Positions 17,037 through 44,600 of a DNA stretch of 64,000 nucleotides are shown piece by piece. The notes below the pieces were generated by a model. The model was not told the origin of the DNA. It searched no databases and saw only the letters and a program-made list of their open reading frames with translations. The stretch spans positions 1 to 64,000 of the forward strand of contig DXHX01000131.1 of the NCBI GenBank assembly GCA_019113205.1, in the 5' to 3' direction. Source of the DNA: Candidatus Pseudogracilibacillus intestinigallinarum (GTDB lineage Bacteria; Bacillota; Bacilli; Bacillales; Amphibacillaceae). How positions within the stretch are numbered: position 1 is the stretch's first letter; every line of letters starts with the position of its first letter. Made by a program: the position numbers and the translations under genes.

Positions 17037-17065
17037 TTGACAAATGTTTCGAGATTTATTATGAT
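17037..17065 (+). promoter_or_regulatory. Sigma-A promoter of the trp operon
   Basis: TTGACA at 17037-17042 and TATGAT at 17060-17065 with an exact 17-bp spacer. It lies immediately upstream of the first T-box, so it should drive the leader and trpEDCFBA. The 150 bp between the MITE and this site show nothing else. Confidence 0.85.
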
Positions 17066-17084
17066 TATAATCAAATCTTATACA

Positions 17085-17348
17085 TATGCAACGAGAAAGA
17101 AGAGTAATCTATCGTAAACACTTTAGAGAGCTAGTGGTTTGGTGAGAACTAGTGTGGCACATAGATGAATGGACTTTCTGGCATTTAAACCGAACGAGTT
17201 TTCACTTCAGTAGGCTTTAACGATTTAGTCTCCCGTTATATGAGACGAATAGATATATATCTATTCACCAAAGTGAGCAAATAATATTGCTAATAAAGGT
17301 GGTACCGCGATCCTCGTCCTTTTCTTATGGATGGAGGTGTTTTTTTAT
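17085..17348 (+). ncRNA. T-box leader 1 (Trp) upstream of trpE
   Basis: tRNA-sensing transcription attenuator. Visible parts, in order: AGAGAG with the apical loop region GGTTTGGTG; a specifier loop ATGAATGGA with UGG (Trp) at 17170-17172, closed by AAAG/CTTT; the T-box core AAGGTGGTACCGCG at 17296-17309; and a terminator (CCTCGTCC with GGATGGAGG, then T7) ending at 17348. Uncharged tRNA-Trp should stabilise the antiterminator and allow read-through. Its discriminator-pairing bulge is UGGU. It is the first of two tandem leaders. Confidence 0.92.
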
Positions 17349-17387
17349 GCCACATTTCTATAGAATAACTTCATATATATTTATAAA

Positions 17388-17682
17388 TCGCAAAGTAAGA
17401 AGAGTACATTTTTAAGAAATATTAAAGAGAGCTAGGGGTGGTGGGATCCTAGTATGTGGATAAAGATGGAATGGGCTTACGAGAGAATCTTTGAACGACG
17501 GCTTTTAGTAGGAGATTCCGTTATTCCGACGTTATACGGATAGAATATCGAATACAAACAAATGTATTCCGTATTTGAAAACGAGATAAAGGGAAGTTTA
17601 TATCCCCCTTTAAAATGAGGTGGCACCACGGTCTATCATCGTCCTCTACAAACATATATATGTTTGTAGAGGACTTTTTTTA
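17388..17682 (+). ncRNA. T-box leader 2 (Trp) upstream of trpE
   Basis: Second complete T-box. It has an AAGAGAGCTAGG / GGTGGTGGGATCCTAG apical stem and a specifier loop GGAATGGG with UGG (Trp) at 17472-17474, closed by GTAAG/CTTAC. The core ATGAGGTGGCACCACGG is at 17615-17631. A very strong terminator, GTCCTCTACAAACAT with its exact complement, spans 17641-17674 and is followed by T7. The tRNA-acceptor pairing bulge is UGGC, unlike UGGU in leader 1. It ends 20 bp before trpE, so transcription must pass both terminators to reach the operon. Confidence 0.93.
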
Positions 17683-17702
17683 TTTTTAGGAGGAAATAAG
17701 AA

Positions 17703-19088
17703 ATGATTAAACAACAAAACACATATACATCTTTAAAGATAAATGCTGATACATTAACACCTGTAGGAATATTTAAACGATTAGAAGGTACAAAAAAGTT
17801 TTTATTAGAAAGTTCCTTCCAACATGAAAGGAAAGGGAAGTTCTCTTATGTTGGTGCGAATCCTTACGAGGAAATAATCGGTTACGGTACGACAACGACT
17901 GTACGAAACTTGGAAACAAACGAAACGTCGACATATGAGATGCACGTTTTGCAATATTTTAAAGAACATTTCCCAAAAATAAATGCAGACTTACCGCTAC
18001 CTTTTTCTGGTGGGGCTATCGGTTACATCGGTTATGATGCCATTCGCCCTTTCACAAATATCGGTGCCGAAAAGGAAAATGACTTGGAAATGCCTGATTA
18101 TCATTTCATGGTATATGACACGATTATCGCTTATGAACACCGGACAGAAGCCGCTCATATTATCGCATTAAATACGAATGAAGAAACAGAGCCTGAAATC
18201 GATCGTCGTATTCAAAACATCGAAAGGCAATTAAAAAAAGAAATGACGATTGAGGATCCAACGATTGCTCCTTTCGAATTTACATCAACGGTTGAAAAAA
18301 ATGCCTTCATCGACAGAGTAAATAAAGCAAAACATTATATCGAAAAAGGGGAATGTGAACAAATTGTTTTATCACAGCGAATGGTTGCAACGATTACAGA
18401 CGACCCATTTTCAATTTATCGAAAATTACGGACGGCAAACCCTTCCCCATATATGTTCTACATTGATTTTGCAGATTATCTCATTATCGGTGCATCACCT
18501 GAAAGTCTCGTTCAAACTACGGGAAGAACGGTCGTGACAAACCCGATAGCAGGAACAAAGCCAAGAGGCAAAAATGAAGCGGAAGATGCAATGATTGCCT
18601 ATGAATTGTTACAAGATCCAAAAGAAGTTGCTGAACACGATATGCTCGTCCAACTAAGTAAAGATGATTTGCACCCTATTTGTAAACAAGGAAGTATTCA
18701 AGTTCCGGTATATAAAGATATCGTAAAGTATGAACATGTCATGCATATCGTCTCCGAAACACACGGAATATTAAAAGATCATTTAACGAGTTTTGATGCA
18801 TTGGTCGCTTGTTTACCTGCCGGAACGGTATCAGGTTCTCCAAAAATTAGAGCGATGCAAATCATTAATGAATTAGAAGATGAACGACGCGGATTTTACG
18901 CTGGTGGAATTGGCTACATTACGTTTAATCACGATATAAATATTGCGATTGCGATCCGTTCACTCATCATTAAAGATGAAAAAGCATATGTGCAAGCTGG
19001 AGCAGGAATCGTCCAAGATTCTATTGCAGAAAACGAATATATGGAAACTTTGCATAAGGCAAAGTCATTAACGAATTTAAAAAATTAG
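17703..19088 (+). CDS. trpE: Anthranilate synthase component I
   Basis: Catalyses chorismate plus ammonia/glutamine to anthranilate, the first Trp step. The 461-residue chorismate-binding protein has the Trp feedback motif LLESS at 34-38, NPIAGTKPRG at 280-289, HIVSE and PAGTVSGSPKIRA towards the C-terminus. The usual MLVDLxRNDLxR(V/I)C segment reads MLVQLSKDDLHPIC (314-327), which is unusual. No trpG is in the operon, so the glutaminase subunit must be encoded elsewhere, probably pabA in a folate locus as in other Bacillus. Good AGGAGG site. Confidence 0.95.
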   Translation: MIKQQNTYTSLKINADTLTPVGIFKRLEGTKKFLLESSFQHERKGKFSYVGANPYEEIIGYGTTTTVRNLETNETSTYEMHVLQYFKEHFPKINADLPLPFSGGAIGYIGYDAIRPFTNIGAEKENDLEMPDYHFMVYDTIIAYEHRTEAAHIIALNTNEETEPEIDRRIQNIERQLKKEMTIEDPTIAPFEFTSTVEKNAFIDRVNKAKHYIEKGECEQIVLSQRMVATITDDPFSIYRKLRTANPSPYMFYIDFADYLIIGASPESLVQTTGRTVVTNPIAGTKPRGKNEAEDAMIAYELLQDPKEVAEHDMLVQLSKDDLHPICKQGSIQVPVYKDIVKYEHVMHIVSETHGILKDHLTSFDALVACLPAGTVSGSPKIRAMQIINELEDERRGFYAGGIGYITFNHDINIAIAIRSLIIKDEKAYVQAGAGIVQDSIAENEYMETLHKAKSLTNLKN

Positions 19089-19101: not shown

Positions 19102-20130
19102 ATGAGAGATTATCTTGAAAAATTAATGCAAGCGAATGATTTAACGATGGATGAAATAGGTCATGTGACGAATTTATGTTTAACAGAAGATATCCCAAAT
19201 ACGCAAATAGCTGCATTTTTAACGGCACTTCGTATAAAAGGGGAAACCCCAGAAGAAATCGCAGGAATCGCTCAAGTCATTCGAGAACAATCTGTCATGA
19301 GTGATATCCAACTAGCAAATGTGATGGATAACTGCGGTACTGGTGGAGATCGTTCGAACAGTTTCAATATTAGTACGACATCTGCATTCGTATTAGCAGG
19401 TGCTGGTATTCCTGTAGCAAAACATGGCAATCGCAGTGTATCAAGTACAACCGGAAGCGCAGACGTGTTGGAACAGCTCGGTGTATCTTTAACGATGACG
19501 AAGGAACAAATCGAGACGACATTAAAGGAAAACAATATCGTCTTTTTATTTGCACCACATGTCCATGCAAAATTAAAACCATTTATGCAAGTGAGACAAC
19601 AACTAGGATTGCCAACGATTTTCAATTTAATTGGTCCTTTAACAAACCCTGTAGAATTAGATGCTCAACTAATGGGGGTATATGACCGCACAAAATTAAC
19701 GACGATCGCGAAAGCATTAAGAACATTAGGTAGAAAACGCGCTCTCGTCCTGAACGGTGCAGGAAATATGGATGAAGGATCACTCGCAGGTGAGAACCAT
19801 CTTGTTCTTCTAGAGGACGGAAAGATCCAATCATTTACAGTACACCCGAATGATGTCGGTTTACCTGTTTACGATAACGAAGCTATTCGTGGCGGGGATG
19901 CAAAACAAAATGCAGAAATTTTACGAAGTGTCCTAAACAATGAACCGAGTGCATATTTAGATACAGTTTTATTTAATGCTGCATTAGGGTTATTTGCAAA
20001 CGGAAAGGCAAGGACGATTATAGAAGGAATTGACATTGCCAAAGAAAGTATTCAATCCGGAAAAGCGCTTCATGCTTTAAATTATTTAATCAATGTGAGT
20101 AACAATGAAACTCATTCTATAATTTCTTAA
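19102..20130 (+). CDS. trpD: Anthranilate phosphoribosyltransferase
   Basis: Transfers phosphoribose from PRPP to anthranilate. The 342-residue protein shows the family loop CGTGGDRSNSFNISTTSA near residues 77-94 for PRPP and anthranilate, KHGNRSVSSTTGSADVLEQLG after it, and HPAM-type region FLFAPHVHAKLKP near residue 155. All catalytic motifs are intact. It starts 13 bp after trpE behind an AGGAGG site, second gene of the trp operon. Confidence 0.97.
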   Translation: MRDYLEKLMQANDLTMDEIGHVTNLCLTEDIPNTQIAAFLTALRIKGETPEEIAGIAQVIREQSVMSDIQLANVMDNCGTGGDRSNSFNISTTSAFVLAGAGIPVAKHGNRSVSSTTGSADVLEQLGVSLTMTKEQIETTLKENNIVFLFAPHVHAKLKPFMQVRQQLGLPTIFNLIGPLTNPVELDAQLMGVYDRTKLTTIAKALRTLGRKRALVLNGAGNMDEGSLAGENHLVLLEDGKIQSFTVHPNDVGLPVYDNEAIRGGDAKQNAEILRSVLNNEPSAYLDTVLFNAALGLFANGKARTIIEGIDIAKESIQSGKALHALNYLINVSNNETHSIIS

Positions 20131-20143
20131 AGAGGTGATAATG

Positions 20144-20932
20144 ATGACAATATTAATGAAAATTTTACAAAAAAAAGCAAAAGAAGTGCAACAAATAAAT
20201 CGCGAAACATTCCCAACAAATGAGTATAAAAAAGTACCAACTTTTTACGAAACGATTCGAGTAAATCATAAAATGGGTGTCATTGCAGAAATTAAACGTG
20301 CTTCCCCGTCCAAAGGAATGATCAATGAACATGTTGACCCTGTTCAACAAGCAAAATTATATGAACAGCATGGGGCTAGCGCCATTTCTGTATTAACTGA
20401 TACCCCCTTTTTCAAAGGGACGATGGAAGATTTACAAAATGTACGTGCAGCAGTAAATATTCCGATTCTTTGCAAAGATTTTATCATCGACGAAATTCAA
20501 ATTGATCGTGCAAAAGCATATGGGGCAAATATTATTTTACTCATCGCGGCAGCACTCGACGATGCACATTTAAGACGGTTATATGATTACGCGATAAGTT
20601 TAAACTTGGAAGTACTTTGTGAAGTTCATAATGAAGAAGAAATGGAACGTGTTTTACAGCTTAACCCAAGATTAGTCGGTGTGAATAATCGTGATTTAAA
20701 AACATTCCATGTCGACCTTCAAACGACTAATCGTTTGGCAAAAATGGTACGTAATAATGATATTATTTTTATTAGTGAAAGTGGTATTGAAACTGGGGCT
20801 GATGTCGCCATAGTGAAAGATGCTGGAGCAGAAGCCATTTTGGTTGGGGAGACACTCATGCGTGCAGCAAATGTTGCCAATAAAATGGAGGAATTCCAAT
20901 TACCATTTGAAGAAAAGAAGGGTGTTAAATGA
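20144..20932 (+). CDS. trpC: Indole-3-glycerol-phosphate synthase
   Basis: TIM-barrel enzyme closing the indole ring on carboxyphenylamino-deoxyribulose phosphate. Key segments: EIKRASPSKG (catalytic Glu and Lys), VLTDTPFFKG, CKDFIIDEIQ, GVNNRDLKTF and SESGI. It is 262 residues from the chosen ATG. A GTG and two ATGs lie close together; AGAGGTG is best spaced (six bases) for the ATG at 20144. Its last codons overlap trpF by an ATGA. Confidence 0.95.
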   Translation: MTILMKILQKKAKEVQQINRETFPTNEYKKVPTFYETIRVNHKMGVIAEIKRASPSKGMINEHVDPVQQAKLYEQHGASAISVLTDTPFFKGTMEDLQNVRAAVNIPILCKDFIIDEIQIDRAKAYGANIILLIAAALDDAHLRRLYDYAISLNLEVLCEVHNEEEMERVLQLNPRLVGVNNRDLKTFHVDLQTTNRLAKMVRNNDIIFISESGIETGADVAIVKDAGAEAILVGETLMRAANVANKMEEFQLPFEEKKGVK

Positions 20933-21540
20933 ACGTAAAAATATGTGGCATCACATCGATAGAAATGGCAAATGTTGTGGAAGAAAACGGTGCAAATTTT
21001 ATCGGATTTGTATTTGCACCGAGCAAAAGACAAGTATCGACAGAAAAAGCAGCAGAAATTGCCAATACTTTAGGAAAAACGATTAACAAAGTCGGCGTGT
21101 TCGTGAATGAAACGAAAGAAAATATTTGTCACATCGCAGAACAGGTCGGATTAGATTATATTCAACTACACGGCGATGAGACTGCGGCGTTTGCAACGTC
21201 CCTACCATATCCTGTTATAAAAGCATTCTCAAGTGAAAAAGTGACGAATGAATTAATTAACCATTATCCAGCTGACTACATTTTAATCGATAGTCCACCG
21301 CAGGAATTTAGAGGTGGGTCTGGTGTCACATTTGATTGGTCGACACTCAATCAATTCGATATAGATAGAAGCAAACTCATTTTAGCAGGTGGCTTAACGA
21401 TCGATAATGTTGCACAAGCACGAGCACAAGTACAGCCATATGCTGTCGATGTATCAAGTGGCGTCGAAACGAACGGAATAAAGGACGCAAAGAAAATTGA
21501 ACAATTTATTACTTTAGCGAAAAAGGATGGATCACAATGA
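20929..21540 (+). CDS. trpF: Phosphoribosylanthranilate isomerase
   Basis: Amadori isomerase converting phosphoribosyl-anthranilate to CdRP. The 203-residue TIM barrel has VKICGIT at the start (catalytic Cys in the first strand), [22 protein letters not shown], and [10 protein letters not shown] with the later phosphate site DVSSGVE. It overlaps both trpC and trpB by 4 bp (ATGA), indicating coupled translation. Confidence 0.96.
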
Positions 21541-22733
21541 CAACATATTCAATGCCAACAAAAGATGGAAAGTACGGTACATTCGGCGGACAGTTCGTTC
21601 CTGAATTATTAATGCCTGCATTATTAGAATTAGAAGCAGCATACGAGGAAGCCATAAAAGATGAGAATTTTATGGAGGAATTTCACAGTTATTTAAAAGA
21701 CTATGTCGGTCGTGAAACACCATTGTATGAAGCAACAAACTTCGCCAAAGCAATCGGTGATGTACGCGTCTTTCTAAAACGAGAAGATTTAAACCATACA
21801 GGTGCACATAAAATTAATAACTCCCTCGGGCAAGCATTACTCGCAAAACGAATGGGCAAGAAAAAAATTGTAGCCGAAACTGGTGCAGGTCAACATGGTG
21901 TTGCAACTGCAACTGTTTGTGCATTACTTGATTTAGAATGTATCGTTTTTATGGGTGCCAAAGATGTCGAACGCCAAGCACTGAATGTCTTCCGCATGGA
22001 ATTACTCGGCGCTAAGGTTGTCGGCGTGGAACAAGGAAGTAGTACATTAAAAGATGCAGTAAATGAAGCGTTACGCTATTGGGTTGCGAATGTAGAGGAT
22101 ACACATTATATATTAGGTTCTGTCGTTGGTCCACATCCATTTCCAAAAATTGTTCGAGACTTTCAATCAGTCATCGGAAACGAAACGAAAAGTCAAATAA
22201 CCGAACAAATCGGTCAGATGCCTAATCATGTCATTGCGGCAGTCGGTGGTGGAAGTAATGCAATGGGGATGTTTTATCCGTTCATCGATGAGGCAAATGT
22301 TCAGATGTACGGGGTGGAAGCAGGTGGATTGGGTGTTGCAAAAGGGAAACATGCCGCCACCTTATCTGTTGGAGAAACGGGTATTTTACACGGTACAATG
22401 ACAAAACTACTGCAAGATCATAACGGACAAATTCAAGAAGCATTTTCTATATCAGCTGGATTAGATTACCCGGGCGTTGGACCAGAACATAGTCATCTGA
22501 AAGAAACGAACCGTGTAACATACGATGCGATTAACGACGAAGATGCATTAAAAGCCTTTCAATTATTATCCAAAACCGAAGGCATCATCCCAGCTTTAGA
22601 AAGTGCTCATGCTGTTGCATATGCAAAAAAATTAGCTAAAGAAGTACATCCAGGAGACATTATCGTCATTTGTCTATCAGGTCGTGGGGATAAAGATGTA
22701 CAACAAGTGAAAGATAGATTGGAGTCGAAATAA
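21537..22733 (+). CDS. trpB: Tryptophan synthase beta subunit
   Basis: PLP enzyme joining indole to serine. The PLP lysine lies in [11 protein letters not shown] near residues 81-91, the phosphate-binding GGGSNAMG loop near 230-237, and the C-terminal SGRGDKD closes the site. It is 398 residues, the standard TrpB1 length. It overlaps trpF by 4 bp and abuts trpA with no gap, as expected for subunits made in equal amounts. Confidence 0.98.
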
Positions 22734-23531
22734 ATGGGTAAAACAAAAATAGATCATTATTTCCAGGAAATTCAACAACGTAATGAAAATTTATTTGTAC
22801 CATATATCGTTGCCGGTGATGGTGGATTAGAAACATTAAATGATCGGATTCAATTTTTAGAAGAAAGTGGTGCTGCTGCCATTGAACTCGGAATCCCATT
22901 TTCAGACCCTGTTGCTGATGGTCCAACGATTCAAGAAGCGAGCATTCGTGCATTAGAGCATGGTACAAGTTTACGCAAAGTATTAGATACGATCGCGCCA
23001 AAAAAAGAACATCGTCACGTGCCTATCGTATTAATGACCTATATTAATCCGATTTTCGCTTATGGTGTGGAACAATTTGCAGCAGATTGTAAACGAGTCG
23101 GTGTCGATGGGATTATCGTGCCTGACATCCCAATGGAGGAAGAGGAATTAATTGCCCCAAGTCTTGCGGCAAATGATATTGCATATATTCGTCTAGCCGC
23201 ATTGACGAGTACAGAAGACCGTTTAAAAAAGATTGCAGCACAGTCTGAAGGATTTTTATATGCTGTTTCTGTTACAGGAACGACAGGAGAACGAGCGAAT
23301 CATGATGCACGTGTAAGTGATTATTTACAAACATTAAAAAAATTCAGCAATGTGCCAGTATTAGCCGGGTTTGGTGTGGCTAATGCAACACAAGCTAGAG
23401 AATTAAGTAGCCACGGGGATGGAGTCATCGTCGGAAGTAAAATCGTTCAACTTTTTCATGAAGAAAAAGCGACAGAAGTACGTACTTTGATCCAAGAAAG
23501 TTTACCAAAAAAACAACGATTGACTAATTAA
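22734..23531 (+). CDS. trpA: Tryptophan synthase alpha subunit
   Basis: Cleaves indole-3-glycerol phosphate to indole, which is channelled to TrpB. The 265-residue TIM barrel has catalytic Glu in AIELGIPFSDPVADGP near residues 46-62, VPDIPMEE with the second acidic residue, and the phosphate site GFGVANATQA and GVIVGSKIV. The ATG directly follows the trpB stop codon. Last gene of the operon; a terminator follows 11 bp later. Confidence 0.97.
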   Translation: MGKTKIDHYFQEIQQRNENLFVPYIVAGDGGLETLNDRIQFLEESGAAAIELGIPFSDPVADGPTIQEASIRALEHGTSLRKVLDTIAPKKEHRHVPIVLMTYINPIFAYGVEQFAADCKRVGVDGIIVPDIPMEEEELIAPSLAANDIAYIRLAALTSTEDRLKKIAAQSEGFLYAVSVTGTTGERANHDARVSDYLQTLKKFSNVPVLAGFGVANATQARELSSHGDGVIVGSKIVQLFHEEKATEVRTLIQESLPKKQRLTN

Positions 23532-44274: not shown

Positions 44275-44600
44275 AAAATAAAAAACTCTTTTCTCCACAA
44301 ATCTCCTAAAAGATTATGGGGAGAAAAGAGTATCTTTTCACGGTACCACCCAAAAATTCATAGCATTCCTCACGAAAGCCATCTTACAGACTTTTTTAAA
44401 AAGTCTATTGTTGGTAACAGGTATATATCATATACCTGGCTATGCCTAATAAATATAATCGTTCAGCATAACACTCAAGGATGATGTCGGAATAAGTAGT
44501 GTTTCTAGGCTTCCAGCAACCCTAGATCTCTGGGAACACGATGGGCTTAATCCTTTTTTCCTGTCATCGATTTATTTGTATGAATTATCTTACAATTGTT
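44275..44600 (-). ncRNA. T-box leader of the ilv-leu operon (Ile specifier)
   Basis: On the minus strand: Stem I with CCCAGAGATCTAGGGTTGCTGG and a specifier loop closed by AAGGA/TCCTT. The loop reads GACATCA, giving AUC (Ile) at 44483-44485 by alignment with the two Trp leaders in this window. The core TTGGGTGGTACCGTGAA is at 44338-44354 (UGGU, fitting a tRNA ending ACCA). A terminator ACTCTTTTCTCC with complement is at 44285-44331 and is followed by T6. Uncharged tRNA-Ile should permit transcription. The specifier call is less certain than the T-box itself. Confidence 0.85.

Follow-up and report, generated by a model that had tools for sequence, protein, structure and literature searches.

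The trp operon analyzed here, from Candidatus Pseudogracilibacillus intestinigallinarum, is very probably controlled by a standard tandem Trp T-box attenuator with two terminators in series, the leaders being ancient paralogues in a fixed order. Its anatomy is ordinary for trp operons of Bacillota, and we regard the tandem as a typical one whose asymmetry is inherited: the variable base N of the UGGN antiterminator bulge is U in the first leader and C in the second, which is the commonest state among the tandem leaders surveyed and spans many genera. What we add is modest, namely the conserved positional asymmetry and, at a suggestive level, its link to terminator strength; neither was found in the open-access papers searched, and older literature may already report the positional pattern.

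Architecture of the Tandem Leader

Coordinates refer to the window, that is, the whole stretch of 64,000 nucleotides that was analyzed, and features are on its forward (+) strand unless stated. A promoter-like site of the sigma-70 type (TTGACA-17-TATGAT, 17037–17065; 11/12 in a consensus scan), predicted from consensus only, would serve the whole leader and operon. Between this single site and trpE lie two complete T-boxes of the same specificity, and the arrangement is thus a tandem one. Leader 1 extends from Stem I to the antiterminator at 17082–17324 (RF00230, 125.3 bits, E 2e-27, model positions 1–219) and leader 2 at 17382–17649 (RF00230, 123.2 bits, E 8e-27, model positions 1–219); both scores exceed the gathering score, and the full consensus architecture is present. 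The sequence and its place in the Rfam alignment identify a UGG (Trp) specifier in each leader, at 17170–17172 and 17472–17474, with trpE downstream. An earlier note on this DNA had described two complete T-boxes before trpE with UGG at these places and a separate terminator for each, and RF00230 together with direct reading confirms the leaders and specifiers, while a hairpin and a T tract were found for both terminators. The antiterminator bulges, UGGUACC at 17300–17306 (UGGU 17300–17303) and UGGCACC at 17621–17627 (UGGC 17621–17624), read exactly as that note had given them.

The two terminators are of unequal quality. Folding of terminator 1 (17312–17346) gives a weak, interrupted hairpin at 17312–17337 of about -9 to -10 kcal/mol (z -0.95) followed by a T tract at 17340–17346, whereas terminator 2 (17641–17681) is a clear one, supported by folding and by a terminator scan, with a perfect 15-bp hairpin at 17641–17674 (-23.4 kcal/mol, z -10.2) and a T tract at 17675–17681. 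The consensus terminator scan reported terminator 2 only.

The first gene of the controlled operon is trpE, an open reading frame (ORF) at 17703–19088 with TrpE relatives in 124 of the 146 family genomes. It is followed at 19102–23531 by close or overlapping ORFs that we take, from their sequences, to be trpD, trpC, trpF, trpB, and trpA; trpG is absent among the ORFs read downstream of the leaders.

Further T-boxes were seen in passing. One is a third T-box in the window (44314–44576, minus strand), which scores 73.6 bits, below the Rfam cut-off, has the bulge UGGU, and lies upstream of an acetolactate-synthase-like ORF. Another (L003:1501–1768, minus strand) has an apparent ATG (Met) specifier and lies upstream of an ORF resembling, as named by eye, SAM hydroxide adenosyltransferase (DUF62).

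Relation to Known Tandem Riboswitches

Among pathways controlled by contiguous riboswitches, and by tandem T-boxes in particular, tryptophan biosynthesis is described as the one most significantly regulated (PMC12452182). The tandem trp T-boxes described in Bacillota resemble ours in having two complete T-boxes, each with its own expression platform and a Trp specifier, upstream of the trpE operon; both must be relieved, and we see no essential difference between them and the leaders in the window (PMC12452182). In a search of that paper's main text, discriminators, wobble, and sensitivity did not come up. Tandem pseudo-cooperative riboswitches (PMC9481103) likewise consist of two entire switches, arranged one after the other and responding to the same ligand, with a steeper response expected, but T-boxes work through antitermination induced by tRNA, and in the window the two units differ in terminator strength and in the pairing of their bulges.

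None of the seven genus genomes yielded TRAP (PF02081), which makes it probable that the operon studied here is controlled through its T-boxes. Four other family members (G007, G010, G011, and G012) have TRAP as well as tandem trp T-boxes.

Predicted Pairing of the Bulges with tRNA-Trp

The sole tRNA-Trp gene found (L019:1501–1574, minus strand) has the 3' end ...CCCCT-G-CCA and therefore the discriminator G73. The earlier note had taken Bacillus tRNA-Trp to end in GCCA, and the gene now located bears this out. The search covered a 2.47-Mb draft genome of 175 contigs with 28 tRNA matches, in which a second copy may have been missed; the remaining matches are non-Trp, and a second tRNA-Trp with A73, which would have spoken against the pairing that the note proposed, was looked for in this draft and not found. 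Within the family, every one of the 29 tRNA-Trp genes that were read has G73; across the class, a degenerate pattern search for tRNA-Trp returned unrelated matches only. Given G73 and the bulges UGGU and UGGC, the note's further claim of a perfect fit for leader 2 and a wobble for leader 1 follows: against the encoded GCCA, and under the T-box model, U17303 would lie opposite G73 as G·U and C17624 opposite G73 as a Watson–Crick G-C pair.

The wobble in leader 1 is already known for Trp T-boxes. TBDB records, for 46% of Trp T-boxes, a U in the variable position facing a G discriminator, and adds that the G:U pair had been noted earlier (PMC7778990); the leader 1 bulge and its G·U belong to the same class. 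TBDB gives a pooled fraction, whereas in our survey the U falls mostly in leader 1 and the C in leader 2. Neither is the discriminator wobble confined to Trp: the serA T-box of the same genome (L010:1501–1725) has an AGC specifier and a UGGU bulge, though tRNA-Ser(GCU) has G73. The bulge of the serS T-box (L001) is UGGC, and serA and serS thus repeat the contrast between wobble and Watson–Crick pairing for another amino acid.

The base that follows the bulge (17307 and 17628 in the window) is the first of helix A2, to which a role as G-U steric sensor for the amino acid has been ascribed (PMC7583486). It is mostly A in leader 1 and G in leader 2 among Bacilli; in the window's genus it is usually G and then A, opposite to most Bacilli.

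Distribution of the Bulge Bases among Tandem Leaders

The survey drew on the regions upstream of trpE at 238 loci comprising the window's own genus, family, and class and named genome contigs. Leaders of two other genus members agree in core spacing and sequence with those of two named Pseudogracilibacillus records (L049 with L093 and L050 with L094), in keeping with a place of the window in that genus. Two T-box cores are carried by 159 of the 218 non-redundant upstream regions (Bacilli), and the tandem arrangement is present in five of the six other genus genomes, these being the five with a close trpE match. Among the 159 tandems, N of leader 1 and leader 2 is U/C in 108, C/C in 39, C/U in 9, and U/U in 3, counts that are approximate and not independent, with some species possibly counted both under a name and as a second genome. 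N is thus C in 147 of the 159 second leaders and U in 111 of the 159 first leaders, numbers that overstate the evidence when taken raw, the species being related. Single trp T-boxes carry U in 20 cases and C in 26. The comparison of bulge bases across related genomes that the earlier note had suggested therefore shows that the asymmetry recurs.

Terminator Strength and the Wobble Pair

The earlier note overlooked the difference in strength between the terminators, which at about -9 versus -23 kcal/mol in the window is much larger than one wobble pair. Terminator 1 of the window is of the same weak type as in the other genus members examined, where terminator 1 ranges from -9 to -12 and terminator 2 from -22 to -26 kcal/mol. 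Across the 159 tandems, for which a heuristic hairpin finder supplied the energies, the medians are -21.2 for terminator 1 and -24.7 for terminator 2, and terminator 2 is the stronger in 113. The nine C/U leaders are reversed, with medians of -23.8 for terminator 1 and -17.3 for terminator 2, the latter being stronger in three of the nine.

When the difference in terminator strength was regressed on that in wobble by PGLS, the slope was 3.6 kcal/mol per wobble (p 0.023), an exploratory result that is suggestive only, because several tests were made. With phylogeny allowed for, the mean difference between terminators 1 and 2 was not significant (p 0.13), nor was terminator strength on wobble for each leader separately with G+C as covariate (p 0.43 and 0.15); only the within-genome difference gave p 0.02. 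The association also fails inside the genus, where C-bearing first leaders (L051 and L052) have equally weak terminators. The PGLS result is suggestive of a tendency for the wobble to accompany the weaker terminator.

We also considered that the U of leader 1 is kept by pairing within its own terminator. U17303 can pair with G17339 in the window, but the sequence farther downstream is not conserved in L049 and L050, and this explanation was rejected.

Ancestry of the Leaders and Constraint on N

In a tree built from the 118 leader sequences of 59 tandems, a single label change parts all first from all second leaders, whereas label shuffles need at least 32. So clean a split implies that the duplication, or the separate origin, is old, and leaders 1 and 2 are ancient, clearly different paralogues in a fixed order, which have been neither homogenized nor re-ordered within the 59-tandem sample. 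An exchange of leader order in the C/U species was rejected, since their leaders also sort by position, which indicates that the bulge base changed in place there.

A TrpE tree covering 104 tandems served to compare both N positions (N1 and N2, in leaders 1 and 2) with two-fold synonymous C/T sites of trpE, of which 28 columns were used. N1 requires 15 changes and N2 requires 4, against 12 to 32 (median 21.5) for the synonymous columns. A two-state model puts the total rate at 6.20 in the synonymous columns, at 1.12 in N1, and at 0.38 in N2; the synonymous rate is rejected for N1 (p 4e-7) and for N2 (p 1e-34), which evolve about 6-fold and 16-fold more slowly, respectively, and the rate or equilibrium difference between N1 and N2 in this model on this tree is not significant (p 0.22). 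Being slower than synonymous C/T sites, neither position drifts freely, and N2 is held at C.

Mechanism and Interpretation of the U/C Asymmetry

From known T-box biology (PMC7583486), transcription would start near 17070 and encounter two successive intrinsic terminators on its way to trpE. In each leader, the UGG specifier would recognize uncharged tRNA-Trp, whose 3' end would pair with the UGGN bulge so that the antiterminator is favored; charged tRNA would leave the terminator in place. With two terminators in series, both leaders would have to be antiterminated for full operon transcription, keeping basal expression low. Such AND-type logic, which the earlier note had proposed, is the accepted expectation for tandem T-boxes, for which two uncharged tRNAs have been proposed as a requirement (PMC12452182). 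Leader 2 would join a strong terminator to a Watson–Crick bulge–discriminator pair and act as a stringent gate, and leader 1, in this lineage, would join a weak terminator to a tolerated G·U and probably act as a leakier upstream gate; the weakness of terminator 1 suggests this order of a leaky first and a stringent second gate in this lineage.

We lean slightly toward the U of leader 1 being a relic of its history that is tolerated and carries no regulatory meaning, U being the usual base since most tRNAs have A73, and G·U being sufficient. Trp T-boxes as a whole often have this pair (46%; PMC7778990), the serA T-box of the same genome likewise sets UGGU against the G73 of tRNA-Ser, and N of leader 1 has switched between U and C repeatedly. 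This explanation has to accommodate the roughly 6-fold slowing of that position relative to synonymous C/T sites, so that U and C are not freely exchanged, and AT-rich drift does not explain the C kept in leader 2. The same constraint on both N sites favors a functional difference, in which the G·U leader would have a lower affinity for the acceptor end, the two gates would respond at different levels of charging, and a staged response would have been selected; so do the prevalence of U-then-C across many genera (108/159) and the tracking of weaker terminators by the wobble. We nevertheless hold such a function to be doubtful: C/C is the second commonest state (39/159), and N of leader 1 has changed no fewer than 15 times along the tree, also within the genus, which together argue against a strict need for U, and single trp T-boxes carry either base about equally (20 and 26). 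Moreover, in a product-of-gates calculation with each gate hyperbolic and independent, the effective Hill coefficient is 1.19 for equal sensitivities and 1.05 for 30-fold unequal ones, so that in this simple model unequal gates would blunt rather than sharpen the switch and would at most spread the response out.

A different sensitivity of the two leaders, as the earlier note had suggested, is possible. The broader proposal that the gates are anciently specialized, leader 2 being stringent and leader 1 permissive, with bulge pairing co-tuned to terminator strength and a staged response kept across Bacilli, seems to us unlikely. That leader 1 senses another tRNA, one with A73 such as a tRNA-Trp variant, so as to form a two-input gate, is scarcely credible; UGGU would pair perfectly with A73, but both leaders have a UGG specifier, and the one tRNA-Trp found, like all 29 examined in the family, has G73.

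If the asymmetry is not functional, the case would show good tolerance of a G·U pair at the discriminator, a pair that should then not be taken as a sign of special logic. If the asymmetry is functional, tandem switches for the same ligand would not simply be two copies of one gate, and natural tandem T-boxes would offer a ready set for measuring how the discriminator base pair trades off against terminator strength.
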